A stretch of 34,191 nt of DNA from Oscillospiraceae bacterium. GTDB lineage: Bacteria; Bacillota; Clostridia; Oscillospirales; Ruminococcaceae. The notes beneath the pieces were generated by a model. That model was not told the origin of the DNA. It searched no databases and saw only the letters and a program-made list of their open reading frames with translations. The stretch spans positions 1 through 34,191 of the forward strand of contig JAFSCU010000019.1 in assembly GCA_017436575.1 (NCBI GenBank), given 5' to 3'. This document shows, in pieces, positions 5,504 through 32,787 of the stretch. A program made the position numbers and the translations under genes. Position 1 is the first letter of the stretch; every line of letters begins with the position of its first letter.

Positions 5504-8131
5504 TTAGTTCAGTGCTTCAAGGCTTTCAAGAATTTTTGCCTTTTTGTTGTTTGCATTTTCCAGTTTTGCTTTTTCCTGTTCAACAACAGCCTGTGGAGCT
5601 TTTGCCATAAAGCCTGCGTTGTTCAGTTTGCCGGAAATAATCTTGATATCCTTTTCAACTGCTGCCAGTTCTTTGTTCAGACGGGCAGTTTCTTTTTCTT
5701 TGTCAACAAGGTCGCCTGTAGGGATAAATGCACGGGCACCTTCAACAACAATCTGTGAATACAGTTTTGCATCGCCTTCAAATTTTTCCACAATCTGTGT
5801 TTCTTTGGAGAATGCAAATTTTTCCACAAATACAAGACCCTGCTGGAAATCGTCACCGTGAGGTGTTTCGATAATCAGATGTGTTTTGTTTGTTGGGTGT
5901 GCACCCAGCTGTGCACGCAGAGCTCTGATTTCTTTTGCAAGGGCGAAAATTCTGTCCAGAGATTTTTCTTCTTTTTCAAAGTTCAGCTCTTCTGTGTATT
6001 CAGGCCATGCACTTACCATAATGCTGCCTTCGTTGTTTGGCAGTGCCTGGTAAATTTCTTCAGTGATAAATGGCATAAATGGGTGCAGCAGTTTCAGTGC
6101 GCCGTTCATTACATAAACAAGAACACGGAGAACATTGTGTTTTGTTTCAATATCATCAGAGTTAAGTCTTGTTTTTGCAATTTCGATATATCTGTCACAA
6201 ATCTGGTCCCAGATAAAATCATAAGCTTTCTGTGCAGCAAGACCCTGATCAAAGTTTTCCAGATTTTCTGTTGCAGCTTTTGCTGTGTTGTTCAGCGCTG
6301 ACAGAATCCATTTATCTTCCTGTTCCAGTTTTTCAGGCAGACCTGCTGGAATTTCACCGTCAATGTTCATCAGGATGAAACGTGCGGCGTTCCACAGTTT
6401 GTTTGCAAAGTTTCTGGATGCTTTTACTTTTTCGTCGGAGTAACGTGTATCGTTACCTGCGGAAGAACCTGTAGCCAATGTGTAACGCAGAGCGTCAGCA
6501 CCGTACTGGTCGATAACTTCCAGTGGGTCGATGCCGTTGCCCAGGGATTTAGACATTTTAACACCGTTTGCATCACGAACAATACCGTGGATAAGAACAG
6601 TGTCAAATGGTGTTTTACCCATATGTTCAACACCGGAGAAAATCATTCTTGCAACCCAGAAGAAGATGATGTCATAACCTGTTACCAGTGTGCTGGTTGG
6701 GTAGAAGAATTTCAGGTCTTCGCTGTCTTCATTTGGCCAGCCCAGTGTGGAGAATGGCCACAGTGCAGATGAGAACCATGTGTCAAGAGTATCTTCGTCC
6801 TGTACCAGATGTGTACAGCCGCATTTTGGACAAACTGTTGGTTCTTCTTTTGCTACAATGATTTCGCCACATTCCTGGCAGTACCAGGCTGGAATTCGGT
6901 GACCCCACCACAGCTGACGGGAAATACACCAGTCTTTGATGTTTTCCATCCAGTGGAAATAGATTTTATCAAAACGTTCAGGAACGAATTTTGTTTCGCC
7001 GCTGCGAACTGCTTCGATAGCTGGTTTTGCCAGAGGTTCCATTTTAACAAACCACTGTTTTGAAATCATTGGTTCGATTGTATTGTGACAACGGTAGCAA
7101 GTGCCAACATTGTGTTTGTATGGTTCTACTTTTACAAGGTAGCCCTGTTCTTCCAGGTCTTTTACGATAGCTTTTCTGGCTGCAAAGCGGTCCATACCTG
7201 CATATTTGCCTGTATCTTCTGCCATTGTAGCATCATCGTTCATACATTTGATGATTTCCAGGCCGTGACGTGAACCAACTTCAAAGTCGTTAGGGTCGTG
7301 GGCAGGTGTCATTTTAACTGCGCCGGAGCCGAACTCTTTTTCTACATAGCTGTCTGCAAAGATTGGCAGTTCTCTGCCTACCAGCGGCAGAATTGCGAAT
7401 TTGCCGATAAGATGTGTGTATCTTTCATCATCTGGAGCTACACAGATACCGCTGTCGCCCAGCATTGTTTCAGGGCGGGTTGTTGCAACTGTGATAAATT
7501 CATCACTGTCTTTGATTGGGTAACGGATATGCCACAGGCTGCCGTCCTGTTCTTCAAATTCAACTTCAGCGTCAGAAATTGAAGTAAGACAGTGTGGGCA
7601 CCAGTTAACCAGTCTTTCGCCCTGATAGATAAGGCCTTTATTGTACAGGTTTACAAATACTTCTTTAACTGCTTCGCTGCAGCCTTCGTCCATTGTAAAT
7701 CTTTCTCTGTCCCAGTCACAGGACACGCCCATCTTTTTCAGCTGTTCTACAATGCGGCCTGCATATTTTTCTTTCCAGTCCCATGCTCTTTCCAGGAAAG
7801 CTTCACGGCCAATCATTTCTTTTGTCAGACCTTCTTTAGCCATTGCTTCAACAATTTTAGCTTCTGTAGCAATTGAAGCGTGGTCTGTGCCAGGAACCCA
7901 CAGTGCGCAGTAGCCGGCCATTCTCTTGTAACGGATGAAAATATCCTGCAGAGTGTTGTCCAGTGCGTGACCCATGTGAAGCTGCCCTGTGATGTTTGGT
8001 GGCGGCATCATAATTGTGTAAGGTTTCTTTGTTTTGTCAATTTCTGTGTGGAAATATTTGTTTTCCAGCCACATACTGTAAATCTTGTCTTCAACTCGTT
8101 TAGGATTATAGATTTTTTCCAGTTCTTTCAT
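5504..8131 (-). CDS. valS: Valyl-tRNA synthetase
   Basis: 875 residues, a class Ia aminoacyl-tRNA synthetase that charges tRNA-Val. The HIGH-type motif HMGH lies at residues 52-55 after PPPNITG. A CP1 editing domain follows. Paired cysteines (YCQECGEI and CPKCGCTHL, near 415-445) look like a zinc-binding insertion. KMSKS is at about 525-529. A C-terminal coiled coil (about 810-870) is the tRNA-binding arm. The length fits bacterial ValRS. Expression is controlled by the T-box leader directly upstream. Confidence 0.97.
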   Translation of the reverse strand: MKELEKIYNPKRVEDKIYSMWLENKYFHTEIDKTKKPYTIMMPPPNITGQLHMGHALDNTLQDIFIRYKRMAGYCALWVPGTDHASIATEAKIVEAMAKEGLTKEMIGREAFLERAWDWKEKYAGRIVEQLKKMGVSCDWDRERFTMDEGCSEAVKEVFVNLYNKGLIYQGERLVNWCPHCLTSISDAEVEFEEQDGSLWHIRYPIKDSDEFITVATTRPETMLGDSGICVAPDDERYTHLIGKFAILPLVGRELPIFADSYVEKEFGSGAVKMTPAHDPNDFEVGSRHGLEIIKCMNDDATMAEDTGKYAGMDRFAARKAIVKDLEEQGYLVKVEPYKHNVGTCYRCHNTIEPMISKQWFVKMEPLAKPAIEAVRSGETKFVPERFDKIYFHWMENIKDWCISRQLWWGHRIPAWYCQECGEIIVAKEEPTVCPKCGCTHLVQDEDTLDTWFSSALWPFSTLGWPNEDSEDLKFFYPTSTLVTGYDIIFFWVARMIFSGVEHMGKTPFDTVLIHGIVRDANGVKMSKSLGNGIDPLEVIDQYGADALRYTLATGSSAGNDTRYSDEKVKASRNFANKLWNAARFILMNIDGEIPAGLPEKLEQEDKWILSALNNTAKAATENLENFDQGLAAQKAYDFIWDQICDRYIEIAKTRLNSDDIETKHNVLRVLVYVMNGALKLLHPFMPFITEEIYQALPNNEGSIMVSAWPEYTEELNFEKEEKSLDRIFALAKEIRALRAQLGAHPTNKTHLIIETPHGDDFQQGLVFVEKFAFSKETQIVEKFEGDAKLYSQIVVEGARAFIPTGDLVDKEKETARLNKELAAVEKDIKIISGKLNNAGFMAKAPQAVVEQEKAKLENANNKKAKILESLEALN

Positions 8132-8174: not shown

Positions 8175-8430
8175 ATAAAAAAATAACCGCCCCACAAAAA
8201 TATGGGACGATTTTATAACCGTGGTACCACCCAAATTGCCCTGTAAAAATACAGAACCCCTTGTTTTTCTTTAACGCAGAAGGTTACGGAAAGGGCTACT
8301 GAAAGTTCACCTAATCAGCTCAAAAGCTACACAATAAAATTTTGCTTGCCGGCTTTCACCTGCCCCGGCTCTCTAAAAAACAAAGATTTTTACTGCCTCT
8401 TTTTCACAGCTTTTAACTATATTTTTTATT
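8175..8430 (-). ncRNA. T-box riboswitch leader of valS
   Basis: The minus strand carries the T-box core GGGTGGTACCACGG (8232-8219), which pairs with the free 3' end of uncharged tRNA. Upstream is stem I, whose base pairs AAAAGCT with AGCTTTT and whose distal part has AGAGAGCCGG and GAAAGCCGG. Downstream is a terminator stem (cgcccca 8188-8194 with tgggacg 8203-8209) followed by TTATTTTTTT. The 3' strand of the presumed specifier loop reads ATTGTGTAGC (8335-8326), containing GTG and GTA valine codons, so valine specificity fits. Uncharged tRNA-Val would stabilise the antiterminator and switch valS on. Confidence 0.92.
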
Positions 8431-10694: not shown

Positions 10695-11888
10695 ATGGAC
10701 GCAAAATTTTTTGACAAACAGCTGGACAGACGCAACACCGGCGCATTCAAATGGGAAGCACACAAAAATCCAGGCCCATACTACACACCTGTACCTGAAG
10801 AAGATGTAGTACCAATGTGGATTGCTGATATGGACTTTGAAACAGCACCAAGCATTGTGGAAAGAATGATGGAACGTGTAAAACACCCTGCATACGGTTA
10901 TTATCTGCCATCACAGGAATATTTTGATGCTATCTGCAACTGGCACGCAACACGCTATGGCAACCCAATGGTTAAAAGAGAATATATCCTGAACCACACA
11001 TCTGTACTGGCAGGTGTTGGCGCAGCAGTAGAAGCATTTACACTGCCTGGCGACAATATTCTGATCAACCAAACAACATACACAGGTTTCCAGTCAACAG
11101 TTAAAAACCTGGGCAGAAACCTGGTTTACTCTCCACTGGTGAAAGATGAAAATGGTCTGTGGAGAATGAACTTTGAAGAAATGGAAAAACTGATTGTTGC
11201 AAACAAAATCAGCCTGATGATTTTCTGTTCACCACACAACCCAACAGGCCGTGTATGGGAAAAATGGGAAATTGAAAATGTAGTTAACCTGTGCGGTAAA
11301 CTGGGTGTAAAAATTGTTTCAGATGAAATCTGGGCGGACTTTGTGGTAGACCCAGACTGCAAACATATTCCAACACAGTCTGTATCCGACTTGGCAAAAG
11401 AAATTGTAACAGCAAACTATGCACCAAGTAAAACATTTAACCTGGCCGGTCTGCAGGGCTCTTACTCTGTAACATATAACAAACAGATGAGAGACAAAAT
11501 CGACAAAATCGGAAGTACAACACATTCAAACGCTGTTTCCCTGCTGACACTGGAAGCATGTATCGGTGCATACACAGGCGGTGCTGAATATGTGGATGAA
11601 ATGCTGAAATATGTACGCGAAAACCAGAAACTGATGGTTGACTATTTCAACACATGTGAAGGCGTAAGCGTAGACCTGCCACAGGGTACATATGTACTGT
11701 GGGTAAACTTTGATGGTCTGTGCGAAGATGTAGGCGTTATCAGAGATCAGCTGAGAGAAGTGGGTGTTATCACAACTGACGGCCGCGGTTTCCATGGTAA
11801 AACATACCTGCGTTTCAACTGCGCATGCCCAAGAGCAAACTGCGAAAAAGCTATCAAAGCAATGAAAAAAGTTTTCAAATCAAAATAG
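10695..11888 (+). CDS. MalY/PatB-type PLP-dependent C-S lyase or aminotransferase
   Basis: 397 residues, class I/II fold. The PLP lysine is Lys246 in NYAPSKTFNLAGLQ, with Asp210 in SDEIWADF contacting the pyridine nitrogen and SPHNPTGRVW at 179-188 as the family loop. The N-terminal PMWIADMDFETAP segment is the hallmark of MalY/PatB proteins, which usually cleave cystathionine or cysteine. Whether this one acts in methionine synthesis or cysteine breakdown cannot be told. ATG with AAAGGA upstream; monocistronic, with its own promoter and terminator. Confidence 0.92.
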   Translation: MDAKFFDKQLDRRNTGAFKWEAHKNPGPYYTPVPEEDVVPMWIADMDFETAPSIVERMMERVKHPAYGYYLPSQEYFDAICNWHATRYGNPMVKREYILNHTSVLAGVGAAVEAFTLPGDNILINQTTYTGFQSTVKNLGRNLVYSPLVKDENGLWRMNFEEMEKLIVANKISLMIFCSPHNPTGRVWEKWEIENVVNLCGKLGVKIVSDEIWADFVVDPDCKHIPTQSVSDLAKEIVTANYAPSKTFNLAGLQGSYSVTYNKQMRDKIDKIGSTTHSNAVSLLTLEACIGAYTGGAEYVDEMLKYVRENQKLMVDYFNTCEGVSVDLPQGTYVLWVNFDGLCEDVGVIRDQLREVGVITTDGRGFHGKTYLRFNCACPRANCEKAIKAMKKVFKSK

Positions 11889-11931: not shown

Positions 11932-12026
11932 TTGTATATGACAGTAGAGTGTGATAGTATATAATCAGTTAGGAAAATTTGAATTTGGCGAACAGATGTT
12001 ATGTGGAAAATTACACATTTATTTGA

Positions 12027-12032
12027 TATAAT
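12027..12032 (+). promoter_or_regulatory. Extended -10 promoter of the two-gene module
   Basis: TGATATAAT, a perfect -10 with TGn extension, about 45 bp before the first gene. No clear -35. It lies inside the left inverted repeat, so the module carries its own promoter. Confidence 0.55.
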
Positions 12033-12077
12033 ACTGTTAGATAAATTTGAAGTTAACAAACTGATGGAGGAATAATC

Positions 12078-12572
12078 ATGAAATATAAAAGAGAAGAAAT
12101 GCTTGATTTGAATGAAGAAAATGTAAAAAAAATATTTTCTTACTGTGTAGCAACACCACAAACATTAACAGACAACATTAGACAATCTTCTTTCTTTTCA
12201 CAAAGTTGTAATGTGAAAATGCCTAAAATGAATTTTGATAAAATTAGATTAAAAAAAATGAGAAATTCAATCAACTACATGTTAGGGCAATTAAAACCTG
12301 TTCATTCTCATTCACTTCTTATGTCTTTACAAGAGGGCTATAGGAAATATGATAATACTCTTTGGACAGAAAACAAAATTACATTGTTTTCTTTATATTT
12401 TTTAGGTACTGCAACAATACAGTTACCTCATTTTGAACATTCAATAAACACTCCTCAAAATTTTGATTCACCAATTAACAGACAAAGTGAACTTAAACCA
12501 ACACTATCACCAAATGATCCTAACTTTCCTGCATGGTGGGAAGAACACAAGGTAGAATGGGAAGGTCATTAA
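12078..12572 (+). CDS. Hypothetical protein, first gene of the AT-rich module
   Basis: 164 residues, not recognised. ATG follows a strong GGAGG. The N-terminal half is charged and helical-looking, with a basic patch FDKIRLKKMRNS near residue 54. A more hydrophobic stretch (LFSLYFLGTATIQL, about 102-115) follows. The tail is proline- and tryptophan-rich (FPAWWEEHKVEWEGH). No signal peptide or clear membrane segment. The next gene begins 41 nt later with its own GGAG. Context suggests accessory cargo, possibly an interacting pair, but there is no direct evidence of function. Confidence 0.7.
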   Translation: MKYKREEMLDLNEENVKKIFSYCVATPQTLTDNIRQSSFFSQSCNVKMPKMNFDKIRLKKMRNSINYMLGQLKPVHSHSLLMSLQEGYRKYDNTLWTENKITLFSLYFLGTATIQLPHFEHSINTPQNFDSPINRQSELKPTLSPNDPNFPAWWEEHKVEWEGH

Positions 12573-12613
12573 ATTACAAATTCCAATTTGACACGCAAAG
12601 GAGAATAAAAACC

Positions 12614-13102
12614 ATGATTTCAGAACAAGAATATTTTAAATTTTCAAAGAAATTAAATAAGATATTAAAGAAATGTTATGTAGGTACAATTTATCCTGGA
12701 AAAGCTGTTTTTGAAGTTGTTGACGGTTATTCTAAGCAAGGATTGAGCCCATATTATGGACACTCTTCCTTAACAAAAGAAAATTGCTATTTTTTTAATA
12801 AACAATCAGTAATAGAAAACAAAGATGCCATTTTAGAACTATGTGCTATTTTACCAAAACTAAAAACAGTAAAAAATGGTACAGCTGGTACAATTGCATA
12901 TGTTGATTTATTACCTGAAAGGAAAAATACTTTAGAATCATTGACTAAAGACTGTGAATTGGCTGATAAATTTGTAGCTTTATTAGGATTAGCTGAAATT
13001 GGTCTTGCTTCAGATGAATTTATTGGCAGCGATAAATTTTCAGCAACTACTATTGATTTAAACCCACGATATAAAGCTATTATCAATCCAGATGTTGAAT
13101 AA
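12614..13102 (+). CDS. Hypothetical protein, second gene of the AT-rich module
   Basis: 162 residues from the ATG at 12614, preceded by AAAGGAG; a longer in-frame reading from 12533 overlaps the first gene and ignores that ribosome binding site. The sequence has an N-terminal basic helix (SKKLNKILKKC), a mixed central region and a conserved-looking TAGTIAYVDLLPERKNTLESL stretch near residue 95. No known domain is recognised. It ends four bases before the right inverted repeat, so the module is tightly packed between its ends. Confidence 0.7.
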   Translation: MISEQEYFKFSKKLNKILKKCYVGTIYPGKAVFEVVDGYSKQGLSPYYGHSSLTKENCYFFNKQSVIENKDAILELCAILPKLKTVKNGTAGTIAYVDLLPERKNTLESLTKDCELADKFVALLGLAEIGLASDEFIGSDKFSATTIDLNPRYKAIINPDVE

Positions 13103-13172
13103 CGAGAAATTCCAATTTATCTAACAGATTGTACATTAACTTTTTTAATATTTATCACATTAAACAAATAAT

Positions 13173-13232: not shown

Positions 13233-13856
13233 TCATACTGTAAAGTCACATTTCGGATTGGCGTAATGCCAGAAATACAAAGCCGCCACAGTGCGGTATG
13301 GAGAAAACTTATCAGTAATTCTGTGGAAATCTTCCACAGAAAGTTCCTCCAGACCATACAGTTTCATAATACCACGGCGTATGGCCAGGTCCCCGTAAGA
13401 CAGCACATCAGGGCGCTGCATACAGAATGTCAGCATCATTTCAGCAGTCCACTGCCCCACACCCTTTATTTTTGTCAGTTCTTTAATCACATCTTCATCA
13501 GACATTGTGTAAAGTGAGTCTATATCTATTTCTCCCTTTAAAACTTTGGAAGAAAAATCTTTGATATAACCTGCCTTGCGGTAGCTGATGCCCACACTTT
13601 TCAGCTCTTCATCGGGAATTGACATTACTTTTTCAGGTGTAAGCACACCAAATTTTTCATATATTCTGTTTCTGATTGTATTATGAGCAGCAGTGGAAAT
13701 CTGCTGGCCCACAATACTGTCAGTAAGGGATGCAAACAAATCTGTTTCACCATCTCGGTGAATATGGCCGGCCTTTTCTATAAGCCTGGCCATTTTTTCA
13801 TCTTTTTGACAAAGATAATTAATTTCCTTTTCGCCGTATTCAATAACTTTTCTCAT
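13233..13856 (-). CDS. DNA-3-methyladenine glycosylase, AlkA/HhH-GPD type
   Basis: 207 residues from the ATG at 13856, one base after the upstream stop; an earlier in-frame start overlaps the GNAT gene. It removes alkylated bases in base excision repair. The helix-hairpin-helix is LTKIKGVGQWTAEMMLTF (about 127-144) and the catalytic Asp156 sits in YGDLAIRRG. There is no C-terminal iron-sulfur cysteine cluster, which separates it from endonuclease III and MutY. It is short, lacking the N-terminal domain of E. coli AlkA. It is last in a three-gene operon. Confidence 0.9.
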   Translation of the reverse strand: MRKVIEYGEKEINYLCQKDEKMARLIEKAGHIHRDGETDLFASLTDSIVGQQISTAAHNTIRNRIYEKFGVLTPEKVMSIPDEELKSVGISYRKAGYIKDFSSKVLKGEIDIDSLYTMSDEDVIKELTKIKGVGQWTAEMMLTFCMQRPDVLSYGDLAIRRGIMKLYGLEELSVEDFHRITDKFSPYRTVAALYFWHYANPKCDFTV

Positions 13857-13857
13857 A

Positions 13858-14355
13858 TCAGATATCTTTTTCCCAGATTTCTTCCACTGCACCTGGCAAT
13901 ACTTCGTCTTCAGGTGTTTCCTTTGTTATAACAAATCCCAGATTTCTGTACATATTTCTGGCAGGTTTCAGCACATTGTATGTGGAAAAGTATAGATGGT
14001 TATAACCCATATCTTTTGCCATTGACATAGCTGTAGTGAAAATCAGTTTGCCAACACCTTTGCCTCTTGTAAAAGGTTCAACAAAGAAGAAGCGCAGGCG
14101 TGCATTACCTTCTTCTTCACCGATAAGTGTAATTGTACCGCCGAATTTACCATCTATTTTTGCAATAAGCATAAAATCTTTTTCAGGGTTGTATGTTTTT
14201 GGGAAATCATCGATAGCCCCTGTGGCATATTTGTTGAAAAATTCTGAAAAGCCATATTCACCATCAAAAATTTCCACATGACGTTTTTTGGAATATTCGA
14301 TATCTTCCTGTGTGAAGGTTGTTGTCAAAAGTACATCATTTACCATTTTTTCCAT
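13858..14355 (-). CDS. GNAT acetyltransferase
   Basis: 165 residues from the ATG at 14355, which has AAGGAG at the proper distance. The acetyl-CoA loop is RFFFVEPFTRGKGVGKLIF (about 90-108), followed by KPARNMYRNLGFVITKET. Its start overlaps the end of the flavin reductase gene by 20 bases, and its stop is one base before the glycosylase start, so the three genes are translationally linked. The substrate is unknown. Confidence 0.85.
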   Translation of the reverse strand: MEKMVNDVLLTTTFTQEDIEYSKKRHVEIFDGEYGFSEFFNKYATGAIDDFPKTYNPEKDFMLIAKIDGKFGGTITLIGEEEGNARLRFFFVEPFTRGKGVGKLIFTTAMSMAKDMGYNHLYFSTYNVLKPARNMYRNLGFVITKETPEDEVLPGAVEEIWEKDI

Positions 14356-20561: not shown

Positions 20562-21509
20562 ATGTCACTTAAATATTTATCTGAAAAACAAGTTAACGAA
20601 ATGCTAGATATGAATACCTGTATAGGATTGATGAAAGATGTTTTCACAGCCTTTGCAGAGGGTAAAATGGAAAACAAACTGCGCAGTGTTTTCCCATTGC
20701 AGGCAGGCAATGTGTTCGGAATAATGCCAGCCGTTATTCCTTTTGAAGAAGTGTGCGGTGCAAAACTGATTACAGTTTTTCCGTCAAATCACAGCAAAGG
20801 TCTGTCAAGTCATCTGGGTGTGGTAGCTGTGTTTTCCGCCGGTGACGGTCAGCTGTTAGGGCTGTGTGACGGCACAGCAATCACTGCAATACGCACAGGT
20901 GCGGTAAGTGCTGTTGCAACTGAATATCTGTCACGTAAAGACAGCAGTACAATGTGCCTTATCGGTGGCGGTGTACAGGCTGATATGCACCTGAAAGCCA
21001 TCACTATGGTAAGGGATATCAAAAGAGTTACCATCTGGTGCCCAACACTATCCGAAAGTGAAAAATTCTGTAAAAAACACAAGGCTGAATATCCACATAT
21101 CGAGTTTATTCCTTGCGAAAACTGTGCTGATGCAGTAAAAGATGCTGATATTATCAACACTGTTACACCTTCAACAGTTCCTGTGCTGTTTGGCGAATGG
21201 GTTAAAAAAGGTGCACATATAAACGCAGTAGGTGCATGCAGCAAAACAGCCAGGGAACTGGACAGCCAGTGTGTTGCAAAAGCAAAACTGTTCTGTGATA
21301 ATTATGATTCCTGCAGAAACGAAGCCGGTGACTACCTGTTCCCGCTTAATGAAGGTGTGATAAATGAAAGCCATCTGCTGGGTGACCTGGGTGAAGTTGT
21401 CAGCGGCAAAGTGGTGACAAGAACAAGTGATGAAGATATCACAATATTTGAATCACAGGGCCTGGCCTGCGAAGACGTGGTATGCGCCGCATGGCTGCTG
21501 AAGCAGTAA
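20562..21509 (+). CDS. Ornithine cyclodeaminase / mu-crystallin family protein
   Basis: 315 residues, NAD(P)-binding. CGAKLITVFPSN (about 66-77), DGTAITAIRTGAVSAVAT (about 106-123) and the dinucleotide loop LIGGGVQADMHLKAI (about 137-151) are family signatures. Members include ornithine cyclodeaminase, alanine dehydrogenase and ketimine reductase, so the reaction is open. ATG with AAGGAG. The stop codon TAA lies inside the left end of the repeat at 21504, so the insertion appears to have met the exact 3' end of this gene. Confidence 0.88.
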   Translation: MSLKYLSEKQVNEMLDMNTCIGLMKDVFTAFAEGKMENKLRSVFPLQAGNVFGIMPAVIPFEEVCGAKLITVFPSNHSKGLSSHLGVVAVFSAGDGQLLGLCDGTAITAIRTGAVSAVATEYLSRKDSSTMCLIGGGVQADMHLKAITMVRDIKRVTIWCPTLSESEKFCKKHKAEYPHIEFIPCENCADAVKDADIINTVTPSTVPVLFGEWVKKGAHINAVGACSKTARELDSQCVAKAKLFCDNYDSCRNEAGDYLFPLNEGVINESHLLGDLGEVVSGKVVTRTSDEDITIFESQGLACEDVVCAAWLLKQ

Positions 21510-22154
21510 GGAAAATTTGAATAGGGCGAACAGAAAGGGGTTCGGGGAAATCACCCTGAAAAGTTATCGTCGCGTACGGCGACAGGCTGAAGCCCCTCTT
21601 GTCCGCTCGTAACTTTCCCTTCCTCCGCCTTCCTTTATCCGCCACCGGCGGCGGTCGGCTCCGTCACCCGAATAACAATAGCGTAGTCTGCGGAGAGCAA
21701 GTAGATTTCCAGGACGAAGCAGGTGGAAAGATACTTGCGAAAATCGAGGTAAAATTATAGTGCGAATGAACGCAGTGAGTGAGGTTTATAATTTTGCCCG
21801 ATTTGTAGCAGACAGAGCATTCCACACTTGTGCAGCGGTGAGCAAAGCGAATTGGCGGTTTGCCGTGGAAGGCAACTTGTTGCCGACCGCGTGCAAATGC
21901 CCGCTATGGTGGGGCGCGGGCAAGCCAACGGGCTGGGGGAGTCGTCCGCTACACTCGCATGACCAGCTCGTGTTTTTGCTGCGCAAAACCGCTCAGGCGC
22001 TGCGCTAACCCCACGTTTTGGTTACTTTTGCGCCAAAAGTAACGCCAGCGCAGCGTTACAAATTCGGGACGTCGAGGACGCCGTCCCCTACGCGATTGAA
22101 GTATAATATAAATTAATTCTTTGACTATTAGACAAATTCCACTTTATCCAACTG
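21504..22154 (+). repeat. GC-rich structured non-coding repeat, copy A
   Basis: About 650 bp between the ornithine cyclodeaminase gene and the nucleoside hydrolase terminator. Short open frames exist on both strands, but the other copy does not keep them as proteins. Its ends resemble those of the 12 kb module: the left end CAGTAAGGAAAATTTGAAT (21504-21522) and the right end 22134-22154. From about 21534 to 22045 it matches the reverse complement of copy B (32281-32705). Internal hairpins include 21698-21737, 21741-21804, 21974-21988 and 22021-22043. Relative to B it carries about 110 extra bases at about 21548-21666. Confidence 0.8.
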
Positions 22155-32119: not shown

Positions 32120-32153
32120 AAATGAAAAATTAATCTATATAAAATATGTTATG

Positions 32154-32778
32154 AATTATTGTTTATGTGCACTAAACGTGCGCTCTTTAGAGTATTAAAC
32201 ATATATCCGGAAAACTGTCACAATGTCATTCTGAGCGAGTGAAACGAGTCGAAGAATCTTTGCACTTATAAAACATCAAATGATGTTTTATTGTTCTTTT
32301 CTTGAGAAAAGAACCAAAAGCATGGGGCGTCAGCGTAGTGCCTGAGCGATTTTGGCGAAGCCAAAAACACGAGCTGGTCATGAGAGTGTAACGGACGATT
32401 CGCCCTTGGCTTGCCCGCGCTCCACCGTAGCGGGCATTTGCACATGGTCGGCAACACAGTTGCCTTCCACGGCAAACTGCCAATTCGCTGCGCTCATCCC
32501 CTAACGCAGCACAAGTGTGGAATGCTGCGACTGCTACAAATCACGGGAATTTCCCCCTCGCTCACAAATAGTTCGCTCGCCAAAAAATTCTTCCGTGATT
32601 TTCGCAAATATTCCGCCACCTGTCAGTTGTACTGACCCTGGCGGCCTATTTGCTCTCCGCAGTCTGCGCTATTTATATTCGGGGATAAATCCCCGAACCC
32701 CTTTGCCTCCCTCTGACGAGGGAGGTGGCACGGCAAAGCCGTGACGAAGGGAGAGAAATCTCCATATAAACAATAATT
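32154..32778 (-). repeat. GC-rich structured non-coding repeat, copy B (inverted)
   Basis: About 625 bp. It is bounded by a 16-bp inverted repeat, AATTATTGTTTATGTG (32154-32169) and CATATAAACAATAATT (32763-32778), matching at 15 of 16 positions. From 32281 to 32705 it is homologous to copy A in the opposite orientation. Extra parts are a perfect hairpin 32268-32291, a TCATTCTGAGCGAGTGAAAC segment at 32225-32244 of a type I recall as a widespread dispersed repeat, and two hairpins CCTCCCTC/GAGGGAGG (32706-32725) and CACGGC/GCCGTG (32729-32743). No coding gene is supported between 32069 and 32821. Confidence 0.8.
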
Positions 32779-32787
32779 TAAAACTTA

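Follow-up and report, generated by a model that had tools for sequence, protein, structure and literature searches.

A dispersed, folded non-coding repeat and small genes framed by the same short inward-facing sites in a gut lineage of Clostridia

The window analysed here, a stretch of 34,191 nucleotides from an Oscillospiraceae bacterium (genome G000, 2.1 Mb in 54 contigs), carries two copies of a family of small non-coding DNA repeats which is dispersed in the chromosomes of some gut bacteria. The copies share a fold with paired changes, they are scattered through the genome, and many of them, as well as small genes, are framed by short sites which face inward. The best explanation for the whole, held with slightly more confidence than doubt, is that of a mobile unit, non-coding and non-autonomous, whose interior is selected as a folded RNA and which is carried in exchanged cassettes.

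A preliminary description of the window, made from its letters alone, had reported that copy A (21534-22045, plus strand) and copy B (32281-32705, minus strand) keep four hairpins through compensating changes. Reading of both copies finds all four hairpins at those places, the arms change in pairs between the copies, and copy B has the claimed partners on the minus strand. In hairpin 1, CAAGTA (21698-21703) and TACTTG (21732-21737) of copy A become CAAATA and TATTTG in copy B, and the inner arms TTTCC/GGAAA become CCGCC/GGCGG. Hairpin 2 of copy A is closed by AAATCG (21741-21746) and CGATTT (21799-21804), and the inner stem of copy B is GAATTT/AAATTC. Hairpin 3 consists of TTTTGC (21974-21979) and GCAAAA (21983-21988) in copy A and of TTTTGGC/GCCAAAA in copy B; the arms of hairpin 4 in copy A are GTTACTTTTG (22021-22030) and CAAAAGTAAC (22034-22043). 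The four-hairpin description is thus accurate but incomplete, for it missed P1, a long-range helix which encloses the first two hairpins (Table 1).

The unit measures roughly 0.35-0.65 kb, with an interior of 248-270 nt in the nine simple copies that were folded. The interior begins with a 5' hairpin, H0, continues with P1 closing P2 and P3, then with P4, a small hairpin after P1, and ends with P5, a GC hairpin, and P6. A 30-bp near-palindrome, approximately CTGTTNGATAAATTNNAATTTNNCGAACAG, stands before H0 in many copies and recurs, inverted, after the last hairpins. The left site of copy A takes in the last letters of the upstream gene, whose stop codon lies at 21507-21509. The site variant with AAATTATTGTTTA which bounds copy B is also present at other copies. 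Among the 59 copies tabulated (68 matches less nine truncated ones), the ~120-bp repeat which interrupts the loop of H0 was caught by pattern in four (copy A, L002, L039 and L051); this repeat (window 21542-21677) is also found at many other places in the genus. Hairpin 3 sits in a peripheral insertion and its pattern matched 8 of the 59 copies; pieces related to this insertion are found alone at other loci.

Table 1. Positions of the unit, its parts and the gene cassettes (window coordinates unless a locus is named)
Feature	Position	Strand	Basis or remark
Two gene cassettes	11966..13127	+	sites 11966-11995 and 12034-12063 by scan
Gene of cassette 1	12078-12572	+	followed by junction ~12578-12600, by eye
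Gene of cassette 2	12614-13102	+	right site ~13103-13127, by eye
Left 30-bp near-palindromic site, copy A	21504..21533	+	position-weight scan, score 40.2
5' hairpin H0 (TTCGGG/CCCGAA), copy A	21537..21672	+	loop interrupted by ~120-bp repeat
Conserved core, copy A (P1, P2, P3, P4)	21672..21837	+	covariance model R1, E=4.2e-40 (a training sequence of R1)
Long-range helix P1	21686-21691 with 21808-21813	+	closes P2 and P3
Hairpin P2 (hairpin 1)	21697..21738	+	helices 3, 4, 5 of structural alignment
Hairpin P3 (hairpin 2)	21741..21804	+	helices 6, 7, 8 of structural alignment
Peripheral insertion with further hairpins, including hairpin 3	21838..22012	+	letters in 9/59 copies by pattern
Hairpin P6 (hairpin 4)	22021..22043	+	arms stay complementary among variants
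Right 30-bp site, copy A	22125..22154	-	score 32.4
Right end, copy B, inverted AAATTATTGTTTA variant	32145..32170	-	by eye; below scan threshold
Conserved core, copy B	32505..32678	-	model R1, E=7.1e-44 (a training sequence of R1)
Left end, copy B, site variant with AAATTATTGTTTA	32760..32780	-	by eye; below scan threshold
Type-II unit, G000	L020 1420-1660		framed by sites
Type-II unit	L015 1700-1932
Type-II-related stretches, viral contig	L060 810-999, 3326-3493, 6359-6482

A DNA search of G000 with copy A gives 24 matches, many of them partial. From these the repeat is seen to be a mosaic in which one part, the core (about window 21667-21840), is conserved. An alignment of thirteen cores (A1) was folded into 46 pairs, 19 of which are changed on both sides; covariance model R1 is based on them. 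The 68 matches from 69 searched loci were then aligned to the covariance model (alignment A2). In this alignment, whose fit to the model favours high pairing figures, 96.2% of 2,900 cells pair, versus 33.9-48.3% for slid partners, and 23 of the 46 pairs are changed on both sides (337 cells). P1, which is helix 2 of A2, is paired in 96.5% of its cells, with both-side changes in two of its six pairs. A tree of the 63 distinct rows gives 30 same-branch double changes in structural pairs, whereas 500 shuffles of the partners average 1.05 and reach 7 at most. Whole hairpins appear to have been exchanged as blocks between copies (by eye, A1), which would inflate such counts. On the same tree, 85 changes otherwise kept a pair and 47 broke one. 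Five of the ten best-scoring column pairs are structural, compared to 0.03 expected, at an effective number of sequences of 13.7.

Two measures were negative. The number of further pair types in A2 is no higher than in shuffles (260 of 500 shuffles reach it), and a home-made test similar to R-scape, in which substitutions are reshuffled along the tree, gives 0 pairs at E<=0.05. The power to detect an individual pair may be low, since the family is shallow and hairpins have seemingly been exchanged as blocks; the claim for the fold therefore rests on the whole structure and not on each pair. The preliminary description had named significant covariation in a many-copy alignment as the test of its proposal: the structure does covary as a whole, but this does not extend to individual pairs. 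The pairing of the whole structure and the tree counts support the proposal made there, that a non-coding element is under selection for a single-strand fold. The outer hairpins keep their arms: H0, uninterrupted by pattern in 53 of 59 copies, has 16 variants, and P6, which the pattern detects in 41 of 59, has 14 variants with complementary arms. P5 was caught in only 12 of 59, with 9 variants.

The alignment also bears on the strand and on the nature of the folded molecule. G-U occupies 153 of the 2,900 cells of A2 and A-C only 12, in an alignment which, being fitted to the model, leans toward G-U as well. This excess favours the plus strand, the strand of the preliminary description, as the RNA, and it is mainly this statistic which suggests that RNA would be the level at which the unit acts. 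An unlikely alternative is that the hairpins work as single-stranded DNA read by a transposase or a recombinase, with no acting RNA. The ends of IS200/IS605-type elements, REP elements and folded attC sites are DNA hairpins read in this way, and the unit resembles them in being a mobile, hairpin-rich repeat with hairpins near both ends of its interior, and its transcription is predicted only. However, one transition turns a G-C pair into G-U and the other turns it into A-C, so a DNA hairpin that is neutral as to strand would not favour G-U. This argument is softened by the fact that in single-stranded DNA, too, G-T is the milder of the two mismatches. Such ends would also seem to require less than a three-way fold of ~170 nt whose junction letters are conserved.

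A new structured-RNA family, without match in Rfam release 15, is the most likely assignment. At gathering thresholds, the only match of Rfam release 15, the reference collection of structured RNA families, in the window is a T-box elsewhere, with none on the element, which agrees with the preliminary description, where no named RNA family was recognised; membership in an Rfam family is defined by a score above that family's gathering cut-off, and no family reaches it here. Searches of 15 loci (two of which, L003 and L022, are one place) at E up to 1 or 0.1 gave sub-threshold matches only. One of these is to RsaF, over the 3' tail in L007 (1399-1499, minus strand; 33.0 bits, cut-off 60), and among the matches listed this tail is hit in L007 and in no other copy. 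Another is to Gut-1 RNA, in the viral contig L060 (240-309; 34.8 bits, cut-off 50). The T-box leader of the window (8200-8416, minus strand; 116.6 bits, cut-off 93) precedes an 875-aa frame on the same strand (5504-8131).

A coding role was rejected, as the cores differ in length by amounts of every phase and have no open frame in common. In 45 of 59 cores an antisense frame is open, where shuffles lead one to expect 29%; the frames differ and 14 cores have none. No promoter-like site was found on the plus strand of copy A.

Model R1 finds 13 copies in G000, besides a truncated fourteenth at a contig end (L019). Among 16 genomes of the genus, four have R1 matches, fragments included: 13 in G000, 31 in G204, 18 in G206 and 10 in G207. 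Of the seven genus genomes with a completeness of 90% or more and a contamination of 5% or less, two have matches. Scans with stricter filters returned G000 as the single positive genome, both among 197 genomes of the family and, with model R2, among 398 genomes of the phylum. The absence elsewhere is provisional because of these filters and because the phylum scan scored just seven candidates in G000 and recovered 7 of its own 13 copies. Phage and plasmid records gave no match to a 306-base query. One copy is found in viral contigs, in L060, which encodes a terminase and a portal gene (the latter just above cut-off); a looser 15-base pattern gives 44 stretches in viral contigs, of which only L060 is a good R2 match (five others have E 0.23-0.6). 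The 30-bp site pattern and a 164-aa cassette protein have no viral match. Open-access literature searches returned nothing recognised as this element.

The unit turns over between species of one genus. For four of the 13 copies of G000 (L001, L007, L008 and L012), a relative has a copy beside a matching flank and in the same orientation. A fifth, L011, has a flank in common with a G204 copy that is oppositely oriented; these counts cover the flanks of fetched copies and are limited by contig ends. Two homologues of the gene upstream of copy A, in L023 and L024, belong to gut genomes from buffalo and goat. Over the 398 bases compared after this gene, L023 does not differ from the G207 stretch L113, so that G207 may be the genome of L023 and not independent of it.

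The placement of the copies tells against a role as a leader. The flanking genes could be read, by longest open reading frame, for 33 copies, some of which are orthologous and so not fully independent: the neighbouring genes are convergent for 18 copies, tandem for 15 and divergent for none. The downstream gene is co-directional in nine of the 33, and six are tandem but on the opposite strand. A leader or riboswitch role was rejected on these figures (18 of 33 convergent, none divergent, tandem 9 versus 6). The placement is consistent with tolerance of the unit at gene ends.

The same placement could be expected if the unit were a cis-acting element in the 3' untranslated RNA of the upstream gene, where it would stabilise the mRNA or end transcription, as other small mobile repeats that carry RNA motifs do. 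The left gene reads toward the unit in 27 of the 33 copies, and the absence of divergent spacers fits as well. But convergent spacers yield this figure for the left gene in either orientation of the unit, and the tandem cases divide 9 to 6. The unit follows what appears to be the upstream gene's own terminator in three of the four copies read by eye, and no terminator-like site was found within copy A on the plus strand. A 3'-end element is improbable.

The preliminary description recognised the repeat as a non-coding element but saw neither its mobility nor the sites which also frame genes. Searching G000 with the site pattern, at up to three mismatches, gives 60 sites, compared to 12 for the reversed pattern, and the position-weight scan, run on the shuffled window, gives a mean of 0.0 matches per 34 kb (20 shuffles). 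In the scoring of the 59 copies, many right flanks are cut by contig ends; 14 copies score above 15 at both ends, and 18 do so at the right end, which is the fairer test because the matrix was trained on left ends. The other copies have weaker or variant sites or are truncated by a contig end. A scan of 23 sources (22 loci chosen as pattern or repeat matches, and the window) gives 13 neighbouring pairs which face inward, none which faces outward and four in the same orientation, the site being so close to a palindrome that orientation was assigned by the higher score. The 13 inward pairs enclose six type-I RNA units, one type-II unit and six protein genes; sites without a partner also exist. 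The cassette proteins include GNAT acetyltransferases, SAP, DUF4304 and HTH proteins, and some have no Pfam match, including both products of the cassette genes in the window. Relatives of the first of these two genes are present at two places in G203. No target-site duplication is evident by eye in the copies read.

Cassette exchange is supported at two loci. Two small genes lie between an aminotransferase gene (10695-11888) and an HhH-GPD gene (13233-13892) in G000; the corresponding interval of G207 contains an RNA unit, ~148 bp duplicated from the upstream gene's end, and a GNAT gene. The outer half-sites of this locus agree between the two genomes and the inner halves differ. In the G207 unit, the ~148-bp duplication takes the place of the right site, an arrangement not predicted by a simple site-specific exchange. 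This duplication (L218, ~1531-1678) comprises the end of the upstream gene, a terminator and a site, and it lies beside the RNA unit. The GNAT cassette, with both of its inner half-sites, recurs at another locus in G206 (90.4% over 562 bp). The second locus follows the OCD gene of copy A, where G000 and G206 have the RNA unit and G207 has the site and then a gene (by eye). Neither RNA unit nor gene was seen there in G203, G204 and G205, nor in G101 and G209, which are more distant. In G207, the place that corresponds to copy A is divided between two contigs which end between the sites. At the three RNA loci followed (copy A, L006 and L022), every relative in which both flanking genes could be located has them on different contigs. 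Either rearrangement or the breaking of contigs at repeats could be the cause, and the relatives yielded no clean empty site at base resolution.

Site-specific exchange is not the only way to account for these data. The 30-bp palindrome might be an operator or the terminal repeat of a transposon, and ordinary transposition together with homologous recombination would then produce the cassette pattern. A TATAAT just upstream of several left sites, the sites without partners, the ~148-bp duplication beside one unit and the flanks of three RNA loci followed on different contigs in relatives all fit such a view. It does not readily account for the different contents between conserved outer halves at two loci, nor for one cassette which has the same inner halves at two loci, and it is considered doubtful.

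On the favoured explanation, that of a mobile unit carried in exchanged cassettes, a putative site-specific recombinase or transposase would move both the RNA units and the gene cassettes by means of the 30-bp sites. The outer half-sites would stay with the chromosome and the inner half-sites would travel with the cassette. The genome encodes six tyrosine recombinases (PF00589) and three serine recombinases. None of the loci fetched for these nine genes has a site at 24/30 or better, and L277 has one weak match at 22. On contig C25 of G000, a site lies ~2.2 kb upstream of tandem integrase genes, which are a lead only as regards the mover; the stretch concerned (L275, 1769-6107) consists of the 30-bp site, an HTH gene, a gene resembling a membrane phosphatase (by eye) and the integrase pair. 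The cassette proteins which were scanned contain no recombinase or transposase domain.

The part that the RNA would play is more tentative. It may be transcribed and bound by a protein through the conserved junction and loop letters, and it might serve the upkeep or the spread of the unit itself and not act as the leader of a neighbouring gene; that it would work in trans is a guess.

The RNA is modular: two or more 5' domains, unrelated to each other, are joined to a common 3' tail. The type-II RNA shares the 3' tail of type I (P5 with its loop, and P6) and has a different 5' domain. Of the three type-II stretches of L060, one is cut by the contig end and one has an altered tail. A third kind of small unit (L016, L017 and L018) combines ends like AAATTATTGTTTA with part of the peripheral insertion of copy A. 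A piece of this insertion also occurs at L021 (~1400-1700), between what appear by eye to be two partial copies of one tRNA. A more ambitious proposal, in which the whole is a chromosomal cassette-exchange system whose modular folded RNAs travel through the sites of the genes and take part in moving or keeping the cassettes, is less probable than any of the alternatives discussed so far.

Two further possibilities are very unlikely. The RNA could be a guide for a recombinase, in the manner of the bridge RNA of IS110, with loops that pair with the sites. A structured RNA within a mobile unit and hairpins with internal loops would suit this role, but when the core of each copy and its next 60 nt are compared to its own left site, the longest match averages 7.08 (24 copies, of which L042 is without a real site), versus 7.37 (sd 0.19) with the cores of other copies and 6.51 (sd 0.20) with shuffled sites. 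Likewise, it is hardly credible that the inverted repeats are a by-product of DNA copying and block exchange without selection on the fold, as the seemingly block-exchanged hairpins and the negative per-pair test might suggest, since P1 pairs letters ~120 nt apart which enclose the exchanged hairpins, one of its pairs switches between U-A and A-U (8 rows being unpaired there), the junction letters are invariant and G-U is in excess.

Among known systems, the unit would work like a dif module or a MITE, which is a likeness and not an established membership. According to the description in PMC10132070, dif has a spacer of 6 bp flanked by two inversely oriented arms of 11 bp each, and the dif (pdif) modules of Acinetobacter plasmids are, like the cassettes described here, small gene modules with short two-armed sites in opposite orientation (the shuffling of dif modules is the subject of PMC13141974). 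Two opposite-orientation sites are indeed what the inward pairs of the chosen sources (13 in 23) and the copies with both ends (14 of 59) display. In contrast to dif modules, the sites are dispersed over a chromosome of Clostridia, they are near-palindromes of 30 bp with letters other than those of the 11 + 6 + 11 dif sites of XerC/XerD, many units are non-coding with a conserved fold, and the recombinase that would act on them is putative.

Like MITEs, the unit is a non-autonomous small mobile repeat in gene spacers; bcr1 is another small mobile intergenic repeat. It is short, non-coding and present in many copies, and its terminal inverted repeats are imperfect and found at both ends in 14 of 59 copies. 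MITEs, ERIC/RU-1, RU-2, Correia and RUP elements are described in PMC2229807 as small non-autonomous repeats of spacers, some with RNA motifs. The present unit differs from MITEs, as they are described in general terms, by its ~170-nt core of several helices with paired changes, by its varying 5' parts on a shared 3' tail, and by end sites which also surround genes.

Two other systems share single features with the unit. The bridge RNA of IS110 is, according to PMC11208160, a structured RNA borne by a mobile element, and so is the present RNA, but its unit has no recombinase gene and shows no guide-like match to its own left site. Integrons have cassettes with and without genes, including ORF-less ones (PMC6557892), as do the loci described here; unlike those of integrons, these cassettes are found on many contigs and not in one array, and no integron integrase was identified.

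The unit adds a structured-RNA family, tied to a pattern of mobile cassettes, in a gut lineage known here from draft genomes only. RNA units and genes lie between the same short sites, as though the same slots served for trading both. Provided that the exchange is site-specific, it would amount to a system resembling dif modules on a chromosome of Clostridia, with an RNA as regular cargo, and the role of this RNA would become testable by finding the recombinase and the partner of the RNA.
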